Source: Nitrospira sp.
GTDB lineage: Bacteria; Nitrospirota; Nitrospiria; Nitrospirales; Nitrospiraceae
Assembly: GCA_030123565.1 (NCBI GenBank)
Contig: CP126122.1
Span: 248,001-312,000 of the forward strand
Reading direction: 5' to 3'
DNA: 64,000 nucleotides
Below, piece by piece: positions 57,777 to 62,613 of the stretch (the first letter of the stretch is position 1; every line of letters starts with the position of its first letter). Position numbers and translations under genes: made by a program. The notes under the pieces are model-generated. The model searched no databases and was not told where the DNA came from. It worked only from the letters and a program-made list of their open reading frames with translations.

Positions 57777-58631
57777 TCAGACGAGCGAGGCAGGGATTGC
57801 GAGCAGCGGACAACGTGCTCCACGGAGCACCCGCTCGGTCGTGGTGCCGCGCAATATGTCCAACAGGCTGTCCTGGCCTTTCGTCGCCATCACGATCAAA
57901 TCCACGTCGAATTCGTCGCCTGCCGCGAGAATCCATTCCACCGGATCACCCTTGCCGAACAACTGATTCCAGGTCCAATCCGCTTTCTGCGGAAGCACCA
58001 ACTTATCGACGCCGGTCTCCTCTCCCGCATGGACCAGCGTCAAGGTGACGGGGGTCGTCGCCAGTTGCGAGACCAGCGAGCTTGCGGCATCGATGGCCGG
58101 CTGAGAGGGTGGATCGGTCGAGATCGGCAACAGGAGGCGATGGAGCGAGGTGTGGCCGGTATCGCGGGAGACAAAACCCTCCACGTGCGACGGCACGAAC
58201 AGCGTCGTCACTTGCATCTCACGCGAGACCGGTTCCGCCACCGAATCGTGGAGCCAACGGCTCACCCCCTCGTGCTGATGCGTAGACAGCACCATCAGAT
58301 CCGCCGGCGATGCCGTGAGATGGTGAATGATGGCCTGCTTGGCGTCGGCGGCCAAGGCGCGAACCTTTCTGACTCGGATGCCCAGCTTCGCCACGTCGCT
58401 TTTGGCACTCGATTCCGGAAGCAGGCCCCATTGCGCCAGGGTCGGGCGGATGCGGGGAAAGTCTTCGAATCCTTCCGGAGCGACGGCGGGATCCACATGC
58501 ATGATCGTCAGTTCCGCGCGGTACACCAGCGCCAGTTTGAGCGCATGGGCGAAGGCGATCTGACTGTCCTTGGAAAAATCCGTAGGGTGGAAGATCCGTT
58601 GGATGGTCCCGGAATCAAGGGTGACGTTCAT
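57777..58631 (-). CDS. Tandem universal stress protein (two UspA domains)
   Basis: Cytoplasmic protein of 284 residues. Two UspA domains follow one another (about 10-150 and 165-284). Each begins with the strand/IFHPTDFS or LLLPIS region and the second ends with an ATP-binding-like VMATKGQDSLLDILRGTTTERVLR (short: GTTTERVLRGA). The first domain has the weaker VLSTHQHEG version. Such proteins support survival under stress. ATG at 58631 begins at the natural start; the longer frame is an extension across the upstream lipoprotein gene. Confidence 0.9.
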   Translation of the reverse strand: MNVTLDSGTIQRIFHPTDFSKDSQIAFAHALKLALVYRAELTIMHVDPAVAPEGFEDFPRIRPTLAQWGLLPESSAKSDVAKLGIRVRKVRALAADAKQAIIHHLTASPADLMVLSTHQHEGVSRWLHDSVAEPVSREMQVTTLFVPSHVEGFVSRDTGHTSLHRLLLPISTDPPSQPAIDAASSLVSQLATTPVTLTLVHAGEETGVDKLVLPQKADWTWNQLFGKGDPVEWILAAGDEFDVDLIVMATKGQDSLLDILRGTTTERVLRGARCPLLAIPASLV

Positions 58632-58698
58632 GGCGACATGGGTCTCCGGTGAAATGCTGTCGTCGGCCCTGACGGCTGCAGGCCGATCACTCGGACGT

Positions 58699-59094
58699 TC
58701 AGCGGCCTGTCGATTGCAACTGCCGTACAAGGTCGCCGGTCGAAGAATTTCCGGACCGGCTCCATCGGCTGTATGAGTCCTGGGCGAGGAGCGGAAACGT
58801 CTGGTCGTCGGTGCGGCCCATGAGCGTTTCCAGGGATGCCAGGTATTCGCCTTGCCCGCGCGCCAGGTCCTGTTCCAGGTTCCGGGCATTGTAGGCGGTG
58901 AAGGCGGCGACCTTGTGTTCCGGTTTCAACAGGCCGTCTTCATTCCACCAGATGCGTCCGGACGTCGAGGCCGTGATGTTGCTGGTCGTGTCGGTGATCT
59001 CTTGAGTCGTGCCCTTGAGAGTGCAGGCTGAGAACAGGAACAGGATAGACAAGCCGCCGAGCACTGCGATGGCCGGACAATGGTGCAGGATCAT
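58699..59094 (-). CDS. DUF3015-like lipoprotein
   Basis: Protein of 131 residues. ATG at 59094 has AGGAGC upstream. The lipobox FLFSAC marks it as lipid-anchored. The mature part is helical; TSNITASTSGRIWWNEDG and the later YLASLETLMG resemble DUF3015 or related proteins. Envelope location, function unknown. It is 67 bases upstream of the UspA gene on the same strand. Confidence 0.7.
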   Translation of the reverse strand: MILHHCPAIAVLGGLSILFLFSACTLKGTTQEITDTTSNITASTSGRIWWNEDGLLKPEHKVAAFTAYNARNLEQDLARGQGEYLASLETLMGRTDDQTFPLLAQDSYSRWSRSGNSSTGDLVRQLQSTGR

Positions 59095-59214
59095 GGTGAG
59101 GCTCCTTTCGTGAGGAGAAGGGAATCTGGGGGCCAACTATACCATAGTACGGACGGGAATGAGCCGGAGGAGATATCGACCTCGCCATTCTGTCGTGAGG
59201 GGGCGGGCCTGTGG

Positions 59215-61440
59215 TCAGTTTGTCCACAAGCGCTGATACCATTTCTTTTCTTCACCGCTCGGCCATGACGCCAGGTTCATCGCCTTGCGGATCTCGCCGA
59301 TGTTCCAGCCGGTCAAGGTCGCCAAGGTCTGCGCCTCCCTTTCATACCGTTCGCGGAGCTGCCGGCGATAGGCCGTGGCAGCGGGGCACTTGTCGGTACC
59401 GGTCCAGGGGTGTCGCAGGATGTAGCGGGCCTGGAAATGGACGCGATCGGAAGTTTCCTGGAACAGCAGGTCTTCGGGAAAATGTGCGGCGTCGTACCGT
59501 ACGTGCAGGCGCGTGAGAAAGACGTGCTGCGCTTGGCCCTTGCCGTTCCCCACCCGTCCGTTGTCGTCCTGCCAGAAGACGCCCAGGCTGCGCAGTTCCT
59601 CGGCTGAGAGCGGATCTGCCGCGCAGGGGTCGCACCAGTTCATGTCCCAGGCATATTCCAGAAATACACCCCGCTCACTCTCGCGCGTTACCTGTTGTGT
59701 GAACAGGTCGCGGTAGAAGTCGCTGAACTTGTCTTTCACGTAAAGCGGGATTTCCTGCGCTTCCGGCACACGCACCGTGCGATAGTTCGTCGTCTCGACA
59801 CGGCCCTGTTTCGTAAGGAAGTAGATGAACAGCTCCTGTGCGCCGTCGGCGTTCACGGTACCCAGGCGGATCGGCAGCATGAACTTGGGCGATTCGAAGG
59901 CGATCTGGAGCGGGCGGAGGTGCGTCAGGCCGAGCTTCGCCTGCTCGCCGAGATTCACCTTCGCCACGAAGAATTTCATGTGTTGTCTCAGATAACTGTG
60001 CAGCACCGATGCCGCGCCGTTCGGAATGCGGTAGCCGTTTTCAGACAGCCAGGTTTCAAGCCCGGCGCTCTCCTTGGCCGAGAGGATCAGGATGTCGTAC
60101 TCGCCGACGGTATATTGCGCTTCGACCGTGACACCCAAGGCGCGGTCGCGTTCACGGCTCGCCGCCGCGGCCGGCGCCATATTCTTCATCGCGTCCATAC
60201 TTTTTCTTTCCAGCAACTCATACCTCATGCAGGGATTCTCATCGAAGTATTCCACCAGCCTCGGGGCTGAATAGTCGGCCAGGTGTTTGAGTACCGCCGG
60301 ATCGCCGACGTGGATCTGGTCCTTCTCCAGGACGGTCGGTACCGGCACCACCAGTACGAATTCTTTCACCTCGCCGCGAAAGTCATTCGCCATCGTGATG
60401 ACCGTCTTGTTGTCGTGGCGTGCGACGGCCACTTCGGACGCCTTGTTGAAGAGTTTCGTGTCGGCCTTGCCGACGTAGAACCCGCAAAAGGCCGAAACGT
60501 CGCCGGTCCAGAAAATCAGACTCGTGAAGAGGGTCAGTGCAAGCACAAGCGCATTGGTCATGGGAACCTCCTTGGTGAAGGGACTGGTCGGCGCAACATG
60601 GGGGACGAGTCGTCCCATTGATGGGCGGGACCAGTCGTAACGGACAGCGGGACAAACATGGTCGAGCAGAGGAACCAGCGGGGCGCAGGCGATCAGGCCC
60701 CAGAGCGGGCCGTTGGGGCGGAACAGGCTGAACTGCACGTAGAGGGCAACGAACGCGACGATGAATGCGAAGACGATGCGGCCGGTTCGGGAATCCGGCG
60801 TCGTTTTTGGATCAGAGATCATGAAGAAGGCAAAGATCAGCAGTGCGCCGCTCTCTATCTGATGGAGCGGAATCGTGAGCGGATCCCCGAGCCAGAGGGC
60901 GCGTGTCACCAGTAGGCCGACGTAGAAGGTGAGAAAGGCCAGCGTGATATCGGCCCGCGCGGCGCGGGTGACCACGAGGCTGCCCAGGCAGGCGGTGAGA
61001 AAACCGAACCAGGCCACCTGCCCCCACTGTCCCGGCGAGATCCAGCCAAGCCCGCTTGTGATTATGACGACCAGGGCAAGGTTGGTGGGATTGAAGAGGT
61101 GTTTGTCCTTCCAACGGAGGACGAACTTGCTGCCGACGGCAAGGAACGAGGCGAGCGCTGCGACGACAAGATCGTTCGTGCGCAGCAGCAAACAGAGGGA
61201 GAGGGCCGAGATCAAGGCGCTGCGGGGATCGAACGAGGGAAGCTGTGTGAGGCGTGTCCCGGCATATTGGGTCAGCAGGGCCGTGCCGATTGTGAGGACC
61301 ATCTGCCAGGGAGACACATCGAAGTGCAGCCACAGCAGGCCATAGAGCAATAGCATGCTCAAACTGGCGATTTGGTAGAGGCGGGGATCGAACGGTTTTG
61401 TCGGCTCGGCCGGTTGGGGATTGCTGTCTCCTTTGTCCAT
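59215..61440 (-). CDS. RnfD-like membrane protein fused in frame to a DUF2330 protein
   Basis: One frame of 741 residues. Residues 1-268 have about nine hydrophobic segments and RnfD/NqrB-like features (KDKHLFNPTNLALV, FFMISDPKTTP, RPNGPLWGLIACAPLVPLLD). A 25-residue unpatterned link follows. Residues 294-741 begin with a fresh signal peptide (MTNALVLALTLFTSLIFW, cleavage near VSA) and form a DUF2330 protein (periplasmic). In other genomes, as I recall, these are separate genes. The inner Met (60561) has its own AGGAGG 5 bases upstream. Thus either both products are made or a stop was lost. A hairpin covers the outer Shine-Dalgarno. Its role is unclear; RnfD-like proteins bind flavin in membrane electron transfer. 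Confidence 0.85.
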   Translation of the reverse strand: MDKGDSNPQPAEPTKPFDPRLYQIASLSMLLLYGLLWLHFDVSPWQMVLTIGTALLTQYAGTRLTQLPSFDPRSALISALSLCLLLRTNDLVVAALASFLAVGSKFVLRWKDKHLFNPTNLALVVIITSGLGWISPGQWGQVAWFGFLTACLGSLVVTRAARADITLAFLTFYVGLLVTRALWLGDPLTIPLHQIESGALLIFAFFMISDPKTTPDSRTGRIVFAFIVAFVALYVQFSLFRPNGPLWGLIACAPLVPLLDHVCPAVRYDWSRPSMGRLVPHVAPTSPFTKEVPMTNALVLALTLFTSLIFWTGDVSAFCGFYVGKADTKLFNKASEVAVARHDNKTVITMANDFRGEVKEFVLVVPVPTVLEKDQIHVGDPAVLKHLADYSAPRLVEYFDENPCMRYELLERKSMDAMKNMAPAAAASRERDRALGVTVEAQYTVGEYDILILSAKESAGLETWLSENGYRIPNGAASVLHSYLRQHMKFFVAKVNLGEQAKLGLTHLRPLQIAFESPKFMLPIRLGTVNADGAQELFIYFLTKQGRVETTNYRTVRVPEAQEIPLYVKDKFSDFYRDLFTQQVTRESERGVFLEYAWDMNWCDPCAADPLSAEELRSLGVFWQDDNGRVGNGKGQAQHVFLTRLHVRYDAAHFPEDLLFQETSDRVHFQARYILRHPWTGTDKCPAATAYRRQLRERYEREAQTLATLTGWNIGEIRKAMNLASWPSGEEKKWYQRLWTN
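60559..60572 (-). promoter_or_regulatory. Internal ribosome-binding site and start of DUF2330 part
   Basis: Minus strand AGGAGG (60572-60567), five bases, ATG at 60561. It lies inside the longer frame, just before a signal peptide. In the +1 frame a TGA overlaps this ATG (ATGA), the usual sign of a coupled gene start. Confidence 0.7.
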
Positions 61441-61765: not shown

Positions 61766-62185
61766 TCAGGCGGACTTGATCCGAAGACTGACTGCTTCGG
61801 CGAAGTGTTTAAAATCGTCGAGGCGATGACGGCAGATCTGATACACGATGTTCCAGTCTATGAGCTGGTAGCTGTGGACAGCGATGTTTCTGAACCCGAC
61901 CGATTTCGTCATTCGTTCAGCGAGGGTAGGCTTGAGGATCTTCAGGTCTTGGAGGATTTCGAAATTCTCCGCCATGGTGGAGGGTGGTCGCGCGTCGGTG
62001 TCGGCAATGACATGGGCTGCGAGGTCCACACAAAGTTGGACGGCTCGCTGGAGATTCAATGCGATGATGTCCTGCAAGTCGAGATCACGCGTCAGCTGGT
62101 CGGCAGATGGAGGTGTCTTGGCCGCGATCCGCTCGACGCAACGACGGAGGGATTCGAGCTTGGCCTCGATCAGATCCCGATCCAT
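61766..62185 (-). CDS. hepT: HepT-like ribonuclease toxin (DUF86)
   Basis: HEPN-domain protein of 139 residues. The active motif Rx4HxY is present as RNIAVHSY (Arg99, His104, Tyr106). HepT cleaves RNA (tRNA in the best-studied case) unless its tyrosine is AMPylated by the paired MntA. The gene overlaps mntA by 16 bases and is the second gene, the usual order for this type VII toxin-antitoxin pair. Confidence 0.9.
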   Translation of the reverse strand: MDRDLIEAKLESLRRCVERIAAKTPPSADQLTRDLDLQDIIALNLQRAVQLCVDLAAHVIADTDARPPSTMAENFEILQDLKILKPTLAERMTKSVGFRNIAVHSYQLIDWNIVYQICRHRLDDFKHFAEAVSLRIKSA

Positions 62186-62613
62186 GCTTTTCTCCTGTCC
62201 GCAAGTATTCGGCGATAGTACGGCATGAAGTCGGCTTCATCATAGACCATCCGGCGGAGCAGGTCGGCATAACGCGTTCGGTCTTTGCAGAGGATCAGTT
62301 TCCCCTGCGTCAGGATTTGGTGAAGCAGCGGGCCATGCAGGTGATCGAGATCGATCAGATCTACCGGACGTCCGAATACCATGGCAAGGTCTTCGATCAG
62401 GTCTAGCCGAGCTTGTGGGGTGAGCGGCGTAGCGGCGGCGACGGCCAGGTCGAGGTCGCTGTCGAAGCGGGCGCGTCCTGTGGCCATCGAGCCGAAGAGA
62501 AAAGCCATGGTTATGGCAGAATGGTGAGCGAGGAGTTGTTCAATAGCGGGACGGACTTCGACTCGTTCATTCGGTGCGGGGTGGTTCATGGGGGAATTCT
62601 CGCTCATGCCCAT
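62170..62613 (-). CDS. mntA: MntA-like nucleotidyltransferase antitoxin
   Basis: Minimal nucleotidyltransferase of 147 residues. The GSx10DxD motif is clear: Gly41-Ser42 and Asp51-x-Asp53 in FGSMATGRARFDSDLD. It is expected to AMPylate HepT and neutralise it. Start at 62613 or at the inner ATG 62589. A transposase remnant lies upstream, so the pair may have arrived with mobile DNA. Confidence 0.9.
   Translation of the reverse strand: MGMSENSPMNHPAPNERVEVRPAIEQLLAHHSAITMAFLFGSMATGRARFDSDLDLAVAAATPLTPQARLDLIEDLAMVFGRPVDLIDLDHLHGPLLHQILTQGKLILCKDRTRYADLLRRMVYDEADFMPYYRRILADRRKAWIGI

Follow-up and report, generated by a model that had tools for sequence, protein, structure and literature searches.

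Bradyrhizobium fbcH encodes a cytochrome b/c1 precursor that is cut at an internal signal peptide. A literature search over titles and the starts of abstracts found no papers on bacterial precursors cut in this way. RnfD and NqrB are membrane proteins of ten helices and are related to urea and ammonium transporters, according to the available part of PMC12174285. Two-subunit Nqr/Rnf-like complexes are also described (PMC8238504, PMC10979944); as far as the accessible sections of these papers go, an RnfD-like subunit without the flavinylated Thr is joined by one extracytosolic partner of the NqrC/RnfG type, and a cytosolic PF00175 domain is part of the membrane subunit. Coupling of genes by termination and reinitiation needs overlaps or very short distances, and short overlaps are over-represented in genes that encode subunits of complexes (PMC10666635, in the portion available).

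How does the present locus compare? In the window (the whole 64,000-nucleotide stretch of Nitrospira sp. DNA that was analysed), one open frame of 741 codons runs from an RnfD-like part into a DUF2330 part without an intervening stop. The gene and its parts are as follows.

59215 to 61440, minus strand: fused gene of 741 amino acids (RnfD-like part, linker, DUF2330 part); a single open frame with Pfam matches to PF03116 and PF10092.
60631 to 61440, minus strand: RnfD-like membrane part, residues 1-270 (PF03116; AlphaFold2 model; Foldseek match to RnfD 8rbq_D).
60562 to 60630, minus strand: linker, residues 271-293, 69 nt or 23 codons, holding the ribosome-binding site; its length is 0 mod 3 as in fused loci, and divergence is flat over codon positions in 13 fused-clade loci.
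60567 to 60573, minus strand: AAGGAGG, ribosome-binding core of the second part, invariant in 16/16 fused-clade loci.
60559 to 60561, minus strand: internal ATG, residue 294; the next base is A, giving ATGA, the overlap type of split relatives.
60490 to 60561, minus strand: putative internal signal peptide MTNALVLALTLFTSLIFWTGDVSA, with V-S-A at the expected cut, before FCGFYV (peptide and cut site read by eye).
59218 to 60489, minus strand: mature DUF2330 part, residues 318-741 (PF10092; 33-row alignment; model).

The layout recalls fbcH, in which a polytopic membrane part likewise runs in frame into a redox partner that is exported by a signal peptide of its own, although the proteins are unrelated and the RnfD-like/DUF2330 pair alternates between fused and split states within one family. 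What is unusual is that the state switched many times within one family and that start, spacer frame and cleavage motif are all kept at once. The main features of the joint had been described in the initial annotation, and most were borne out: the two parts are read without a stop, AGGAGG (60572-60567) lies five bases before an ATG beginning at 60561 that opens a signal peptide, and the base after that ATG is A, so that a TGA in another frame overlaps it as ATGA. In the frame of the window, AAGGAGG encodes Lys-Glu and the G of a Val. The DUF2330 part comprises residues 294-741, and a product initiated at the internal ATG would have 448 amino acids. The genome of the window consists of one 4.6-Mb contig and carries DUF2330 once.

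The assignment of the first part to the RnfD family is based on several comparisons. PF03116 (NQR2_RnfD_RnfE) matches residues 136-264 (E 4.1e-12; 46.5 bits against a cut-off of 27.7), a match that spans only positions 167-291 of the 296 in the profile, i.e. its C-terminal half. Foldseek places RnfD 8rbq_D first (E 7.5e-08) and also finds 9eri_D, 7zc6_D and 8a1t_B, with RnfD and NqrB structures ranging from E 7.5e-08 to 2.2e-03, and phmmer matches the part to 8ahx_D (E 3.4e-06). As in RnfD and NqrB, a ten-helix membrane fold is predicted. Unlike them, the part is short (about 280 aa), reaches only 36.1 bits with the model for RnfD proper (TIGR01946), below the subfamily cut-off of 207.05, and has DUF2330 as its sole fixed neighbour among the annotated locus neighbours. 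The AlphaFold2 model (mean pLDDT 72.8, 46-row alignment) has ten helices in this part, and not the nine of the initial annotation, a difference that matters for topology.

Residues 19-36, 44-64, 72-85, 91-107 and 118-128: predicted helices 1-5 of the RnfD-like part (AlphaFold2).
Residues 140-155, 163-184, 198-209, 218-238 and 244-262: predicted helices 6-10 of the RnfD-like part (AlphaFold2).

An eleventh helix of the model, residues 295-310, lies at the signal peptide. Mean Lys/Arg counts per loop are 0.9-2.5 for predicted inside loops and 0.04-1.0 for predicted outside loops (28 rows), the two ranges touching around helix 3. Since there are ten predicted helices and the inner loops are mostly positive, the linker is probably cytoplasmic and the internal signal peptide N-in, i.e. 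in the right orientation. A periplasmic location of DUF2330, which had been proposed earlier, thus agrees with the predicted helices and loop charges.

The second part is assigned by PF10092 (DUF2330), which matches residues 316-660 with E 1.9e-79 and 267.2 bits (cut-off 24.7), over positions 4-278 of a 279-position profile. Five cysteines, two of them in the motif WCDPCA, are invariant in 33/33 aligned DUF2330 rows. Comparisons with known structures are less telling: a profile search of PDB sequences with DUF2330 gave no matches, and Foldseek with the model found nothing at E ≤ 0.001, the best being baculovirus P35 at 1.6e-03. VIA-align scored the model at Z 10.6 against P35, and at about 7 against both M1-aminopeptidase N-terminal domains and OST domains, with sequence identities of 3-10%. 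These matches are too weak, and an assignment of function from fold likeness was dropped. DUF2330 was not named in the literature searched. Flavinylation of DUF2330 was also considered and rejected, as the motif [ST]GA[ST] is present in 10/95 sequences and is not conserved.

Is the fusion real? A total of 97 distinct loci with both parts were collected, 32 of them fused (the window's included) and 65 split; first counts of fused loci, 18/22 and 25/59, were redundant, and duplicates were removed for this set. Start-based counts use 95 of the 97 loci, as no start was resolved in L082 and L097. Weak rows are L125, which contains Ns and was counted as fused, and L062 and L110, which have a frameshifted RnfD-like copy. 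Seven fused loci are in complete or single-contig genomes (the complete Nitrospira moscoviensis genome, and G000, G001, G016, G021, G029 and G059). In a 69-locus tree, built with a simpler model without mixture and with two split outgroups as its root, the nearest named kin of the window locus are Nitrospira, and the locus forms one fused pair (100/98) with L017. This nearest relative, from a single-contig genome, is 86% identical over 704 columns and shares both the frame and the 69-nt linker. The tree also has an all-fused clade of 16 loci (99/97). It is scarcely credible that sequencing or assembly indels in the linker produced the open frame, the outcome that the initial annotation had named as fatal to a fusion. 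The singletons L055 and L106 do have 75-nt linkers near short homopolymers where their split sisters have 74, and the Ns of L125 point the same way. However, the fusion is common to the window genome and L017, to the 16-locus clade, and to the complete genomes of N. moscoviensis and of an organism taken as Ca. N. defluvii. For the window, an origin by sequencing error is rejected, as independent genomes of its clade have the same frame.

The fusion has also recurred. There are most likely nine changes between the fused and split states on the 69-locus tree (bootstrap 5-95% range 8-10), at least six of them forced. A 96-row tree with other phyla, a quick build that warns of long branches, has 14 changes, at least eight of them forced. 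L110, a short RnfD fragment, was left off the trees, and L096 was counted with the Nitrospiraceae because it nests there; titled Nitrosospira, it falls inside Nitrospira and is probably a mislabelled bin. A history of two coupled genes, as had been suggested, is well reflected in the split relatives. Stop and start overlap in 37 of 40 split Nitrospiraceae loci (35 as ATGA or GTGA, 2 as TGATG), which is the joint type of termination-reinitiation pairs (as described in the available text of PMC10666635), whereas the window and 31 other loci read through in frame. Coupling is not universal, since the remaining three of the 40 are uncoupled and most split pairs outside the family do not overlap: among 23 such loci there are one ATGA and two long overlaps, and the rest have stops upstream, mostly by 6-199 nt. 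The other outcome held to count against that history, an identical fusion with a conserved linker in all relatives, was not what the relatives revealed; their linkers vary and both states occur. The recurrence of the fusion, and the retention of the signal-peptidase motif described below, are points absent from the initial annotation. With this joint found repeatedly in either state, its ribosome-binding core and cleavage motif retained, the locus offers a natural replicated experiment on the passage from operon to fusion.

Fused and split loci differ by a shift in linker length from 2 to 0 mod 3. Among 67 Nitrospiraceae loci the linker phase is 0 in 27 (the fused ones), 2 in 39 and 1 in one. 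Parsimony, with the three uncoupled split loci left out, gives 22 length changes and nine phase changes (64 loci, 63 on the tree). With the phase-1 locus added, nine of ten phase changes lead from one coupled phase to the other (P 0.011), and phase is preserved in 13 of 23 length changes (P 0.019 against one third). These tests are rough, as parsimony gives too few changes and phase 0 is part of the definition of a fused locus. Linkers of the 16-locus clade have no in-frame stop in frame 0 (0/16), compared with 7/16 in each other frame, and in neutral simulation all 16 linkers stay open in 1-3% of runs. Phase and simulation tests alike are of modest strength (P 0.01-0.03), and their basis is a single clade and parsimony counts.

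Does the linker peptide itself matter? On the stretch before the ribosome-binding site, divergence in the fused clade at the three codon positions is 0.38/0.30/0.33 (7 loci, 90 nt) and 0.27/0.28/0.27 (6 loci, 123 nt), close to the third-position rates of the RnfD core (0.34 and 0.28). Equal divergence at the three positions, near the third-position rate, makes the peptide look free in this clade. It is not free everywhere: in split loci this stretch encodes the end of the first protein, and in 20 of them, all with 74-nt linkers, divergence at the three codon positions is 0.42/0.23/0.57, so that tail is under mild protein-level constraint.

The signals for the second part are kept within this drifting linker. 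AAGGAGGT and the ATG are invariant in 16/16 fused-clade loci. The ten bases preceding the core are likewise well conserved (10-16 of 16), so part of the signal retention could be inheritance. AAGGAG is kept in 28/32 fused loci, a count biased towards finding a site because starts were picked by script with the longest ribosome-binding match preferred. The base that makes ATGA has been lost in 10/27 fused loci (at least four changes) and in 0/37 overlapping split Nitrospiraceae loci (Fisher P 6e-05, kinship ignored); fusion releases the overlap constraint. A cleavage motif, A or V at -3 and A at -1, precedes FCGFYV in 32/32 fused loci. It is general in split loci too, and was therefore retained, and not gained, in the fused ones.

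Two further ideas were rejected. The window signal peptide has no Lys or Arg in residues 2-9, a point against its working as a signal peptide; as a mark of fusion, such a loss was set aside, since it occurs in 3/32 fused and 9/63 split loci, without a trend. A conserved RNA structure hiding the ribosome-binding site was sought by folding seven junctions, of which only that of the window clearly beats shuffled sequences (z -2.6; the other six, -0.4 to 1.3).

The retained ribosome-binding core and ATG, together with the many state switches, might be read as signs of a neutral near-accident: DUF2330 would be initiated at the kept ATG, read-through would be tolerated noise, and the fusion would be neither selected nor needed. 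This is distinctly unlikely, for two reasons. With no intervening stop, the RnfD-like protein of a fused locus can be made only joined to the signal peptide, and the frame-0 openness of the 16-locus clade is improbable under neutrality (P 0.01-0.03).

With moderate confidence, we see in the pair a coupled unit that is expressed either by stop-and-restart or as a read-through polyprotein cut at the internal signal peptide. An RnfD-like membrane protein would be encoded first and an exported DUF2330 protein second, their translation coupled in the Nitrospiraceae in two interchangeable ways. In the split state, the ribosome would end the first gene at a stop overlapping the second start codon and restart there. 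In the fused state, an indel would have brought the two genes into one frame, and each ribosome completing the RnfD-like part would continue into DUF2330. The RnfD-like part would end in the cytoplasm after ten helices, and the signal peptide would enter the membrane as an eleventh, N-in helix. Signal peptidase I might then cleave behind V-S-A. Mature DUF2330 would thereby reach the periplasm and a short tail would remain on the RnfD-like protein; a share of DUF2330 could also arise by initiation at the internal ATG. Such cutting would yield the same two proteins as in split species; since the signal-peptidase motif is kept, a fused locus probably gives, as a rule, these two and not one stable protein of 741 residues.

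Could the signal peptide instead stay uncut, the eleventh helix tethering DUF2330 to the RnfD-like part, so that fused and split forms differ in function? The helix modelled at 295-310 fits such a protein, as does a linker open and in frame in 16/16 loci of one clade, but it is unlikely given the A/V-x-A motif kept in 32/32 fused loci and about nine state switches among 69 loci, which suggest that the products of the two states are near-equivalent. Under the favoured reading, cutting into two proteins, a broader proposal can be offered tentatively: stop-and-restart and read-through-and-cut may be interchangeable, with some nine switches in one family, and the pair, under seven phylum labels, may be an obligate, co-translationally assembled envelope module with a redox or transport function. 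The enrichment of short overlaps among complex subunits (PMC10666635, in its available part) fits an obligate pair.

What the pair does is much less certain than its coupling. Most likely it combines a small membrane conduit derived from RnfD, for electrons or solutes, with a periplasmic partner that bears cysteines; our favoured guess is that electrons pass from the membrane to DUF2330. The two-subunit Nqr/Rnf-like complexes offer a parallel, as they too combine an RnfD-like subunit lacking the flavinylated Thr with a single extracytosolic partner (PMC8238504 and PMC10979944, in the sections accessible). They appear to differ in the partner, the fixed one here being DUF2330 among the annotated neighbours, and they differ in the cytosolic PF00175 domain of their membrane subunit; PF00175 was absent among the Pfam matches of the window's fused protein and of eight further fused or split RnfD-like proteins. 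A channel role, for solutes or ions and in place of electron transfer, with DUF2330 as a periplasmic binding or gating partner, seems rather doubtful. In its favour, the flavinylation motif [ST]GA[ST] is absent from all 95 RnfD-like parts (0/95), and urea transporters, relatives of RnfD/NqrB as noted above, do appear in the fold search at E 0.03-0.15, but RnfD and NqrB structures match better.

How widely is the pair distributed? DUF2330 is present in 25/29 genomes of the genus and in 61/147 sampled genomes of the family, 58 of which have both proteins; the RnfD-like protein is found in 58/147, every one with DUF2330. The three DUF2330-only copies (G028, G017, G002) start less than 30 bases from a contig end. 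A scan of named genomes gave 164 confirmed stretches, of which the 80 best were kept; since its patterns came from both halves and ranking was by match to the whole fused protein, the scan favours pairs and Nitrospira. Among these 80, 75 loci have upstream room and 70 of the 75 have an RnfD-like gene within 2.5 kb, a share that for the same reasons is an upper view. Ten lack an RnfD-like part within reach, and five of these ten lie at contig ends. In L129, L130, L132, L136 and L145 (Dadabacteria, Parabeggiatoa, Methylococcaceae and Thiomargarita records), DUF2330 occurs without an RnfD-like gene in the flanks.

The pair is recorded under seven phylum labels, namely Nitrospirota, Pseudomonadota, Acidobacteriota, Myxococcota, Verrucomicrobiota, Rokuibacteriota and Thermodesulfobacteriota, the last being the NCBI filing of Dadabacteria; many of the records are bins, and labels may err. 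Pfam confirmed the families in ten more proteins from eight loci, fused and split. The pair occurs in nitrite oxidisers and, by record names, in methanotrophs, sulfur oxidisers and others. It links the uncharacterised DUF2330 with an RnfD-like membrane protein, the two likely forming a functional unit that can be tested together. A wider conserved operon was rejected, as neighbours beyond the pair are shared chiefly among Nitrospira or among members of the Marinicaulis group. The widest cross-phylum neighbour cluster, response-regulator-like by eye, is found at 15 loci in four phyla (12 in Pseudomonadota) at varying positions; cluster 0 merges both genes of the pair because fused members join them.

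Some loci show internal stops or a frameshift in the DUF2330 or the RnfD-like part, i.e. L062 (G125) and G066:C2:182037-182795, which may represent decay or assembly errors. In the window, a HepT/MntA type VII toxin-antitoxin pair (61766-62613, minus strand) is immediately upstream of the fused gene, and genes for a DUF3015 protein (58699-59136) and a two-domain universal stress protein (57777-58889) follow downstream on the same strand.
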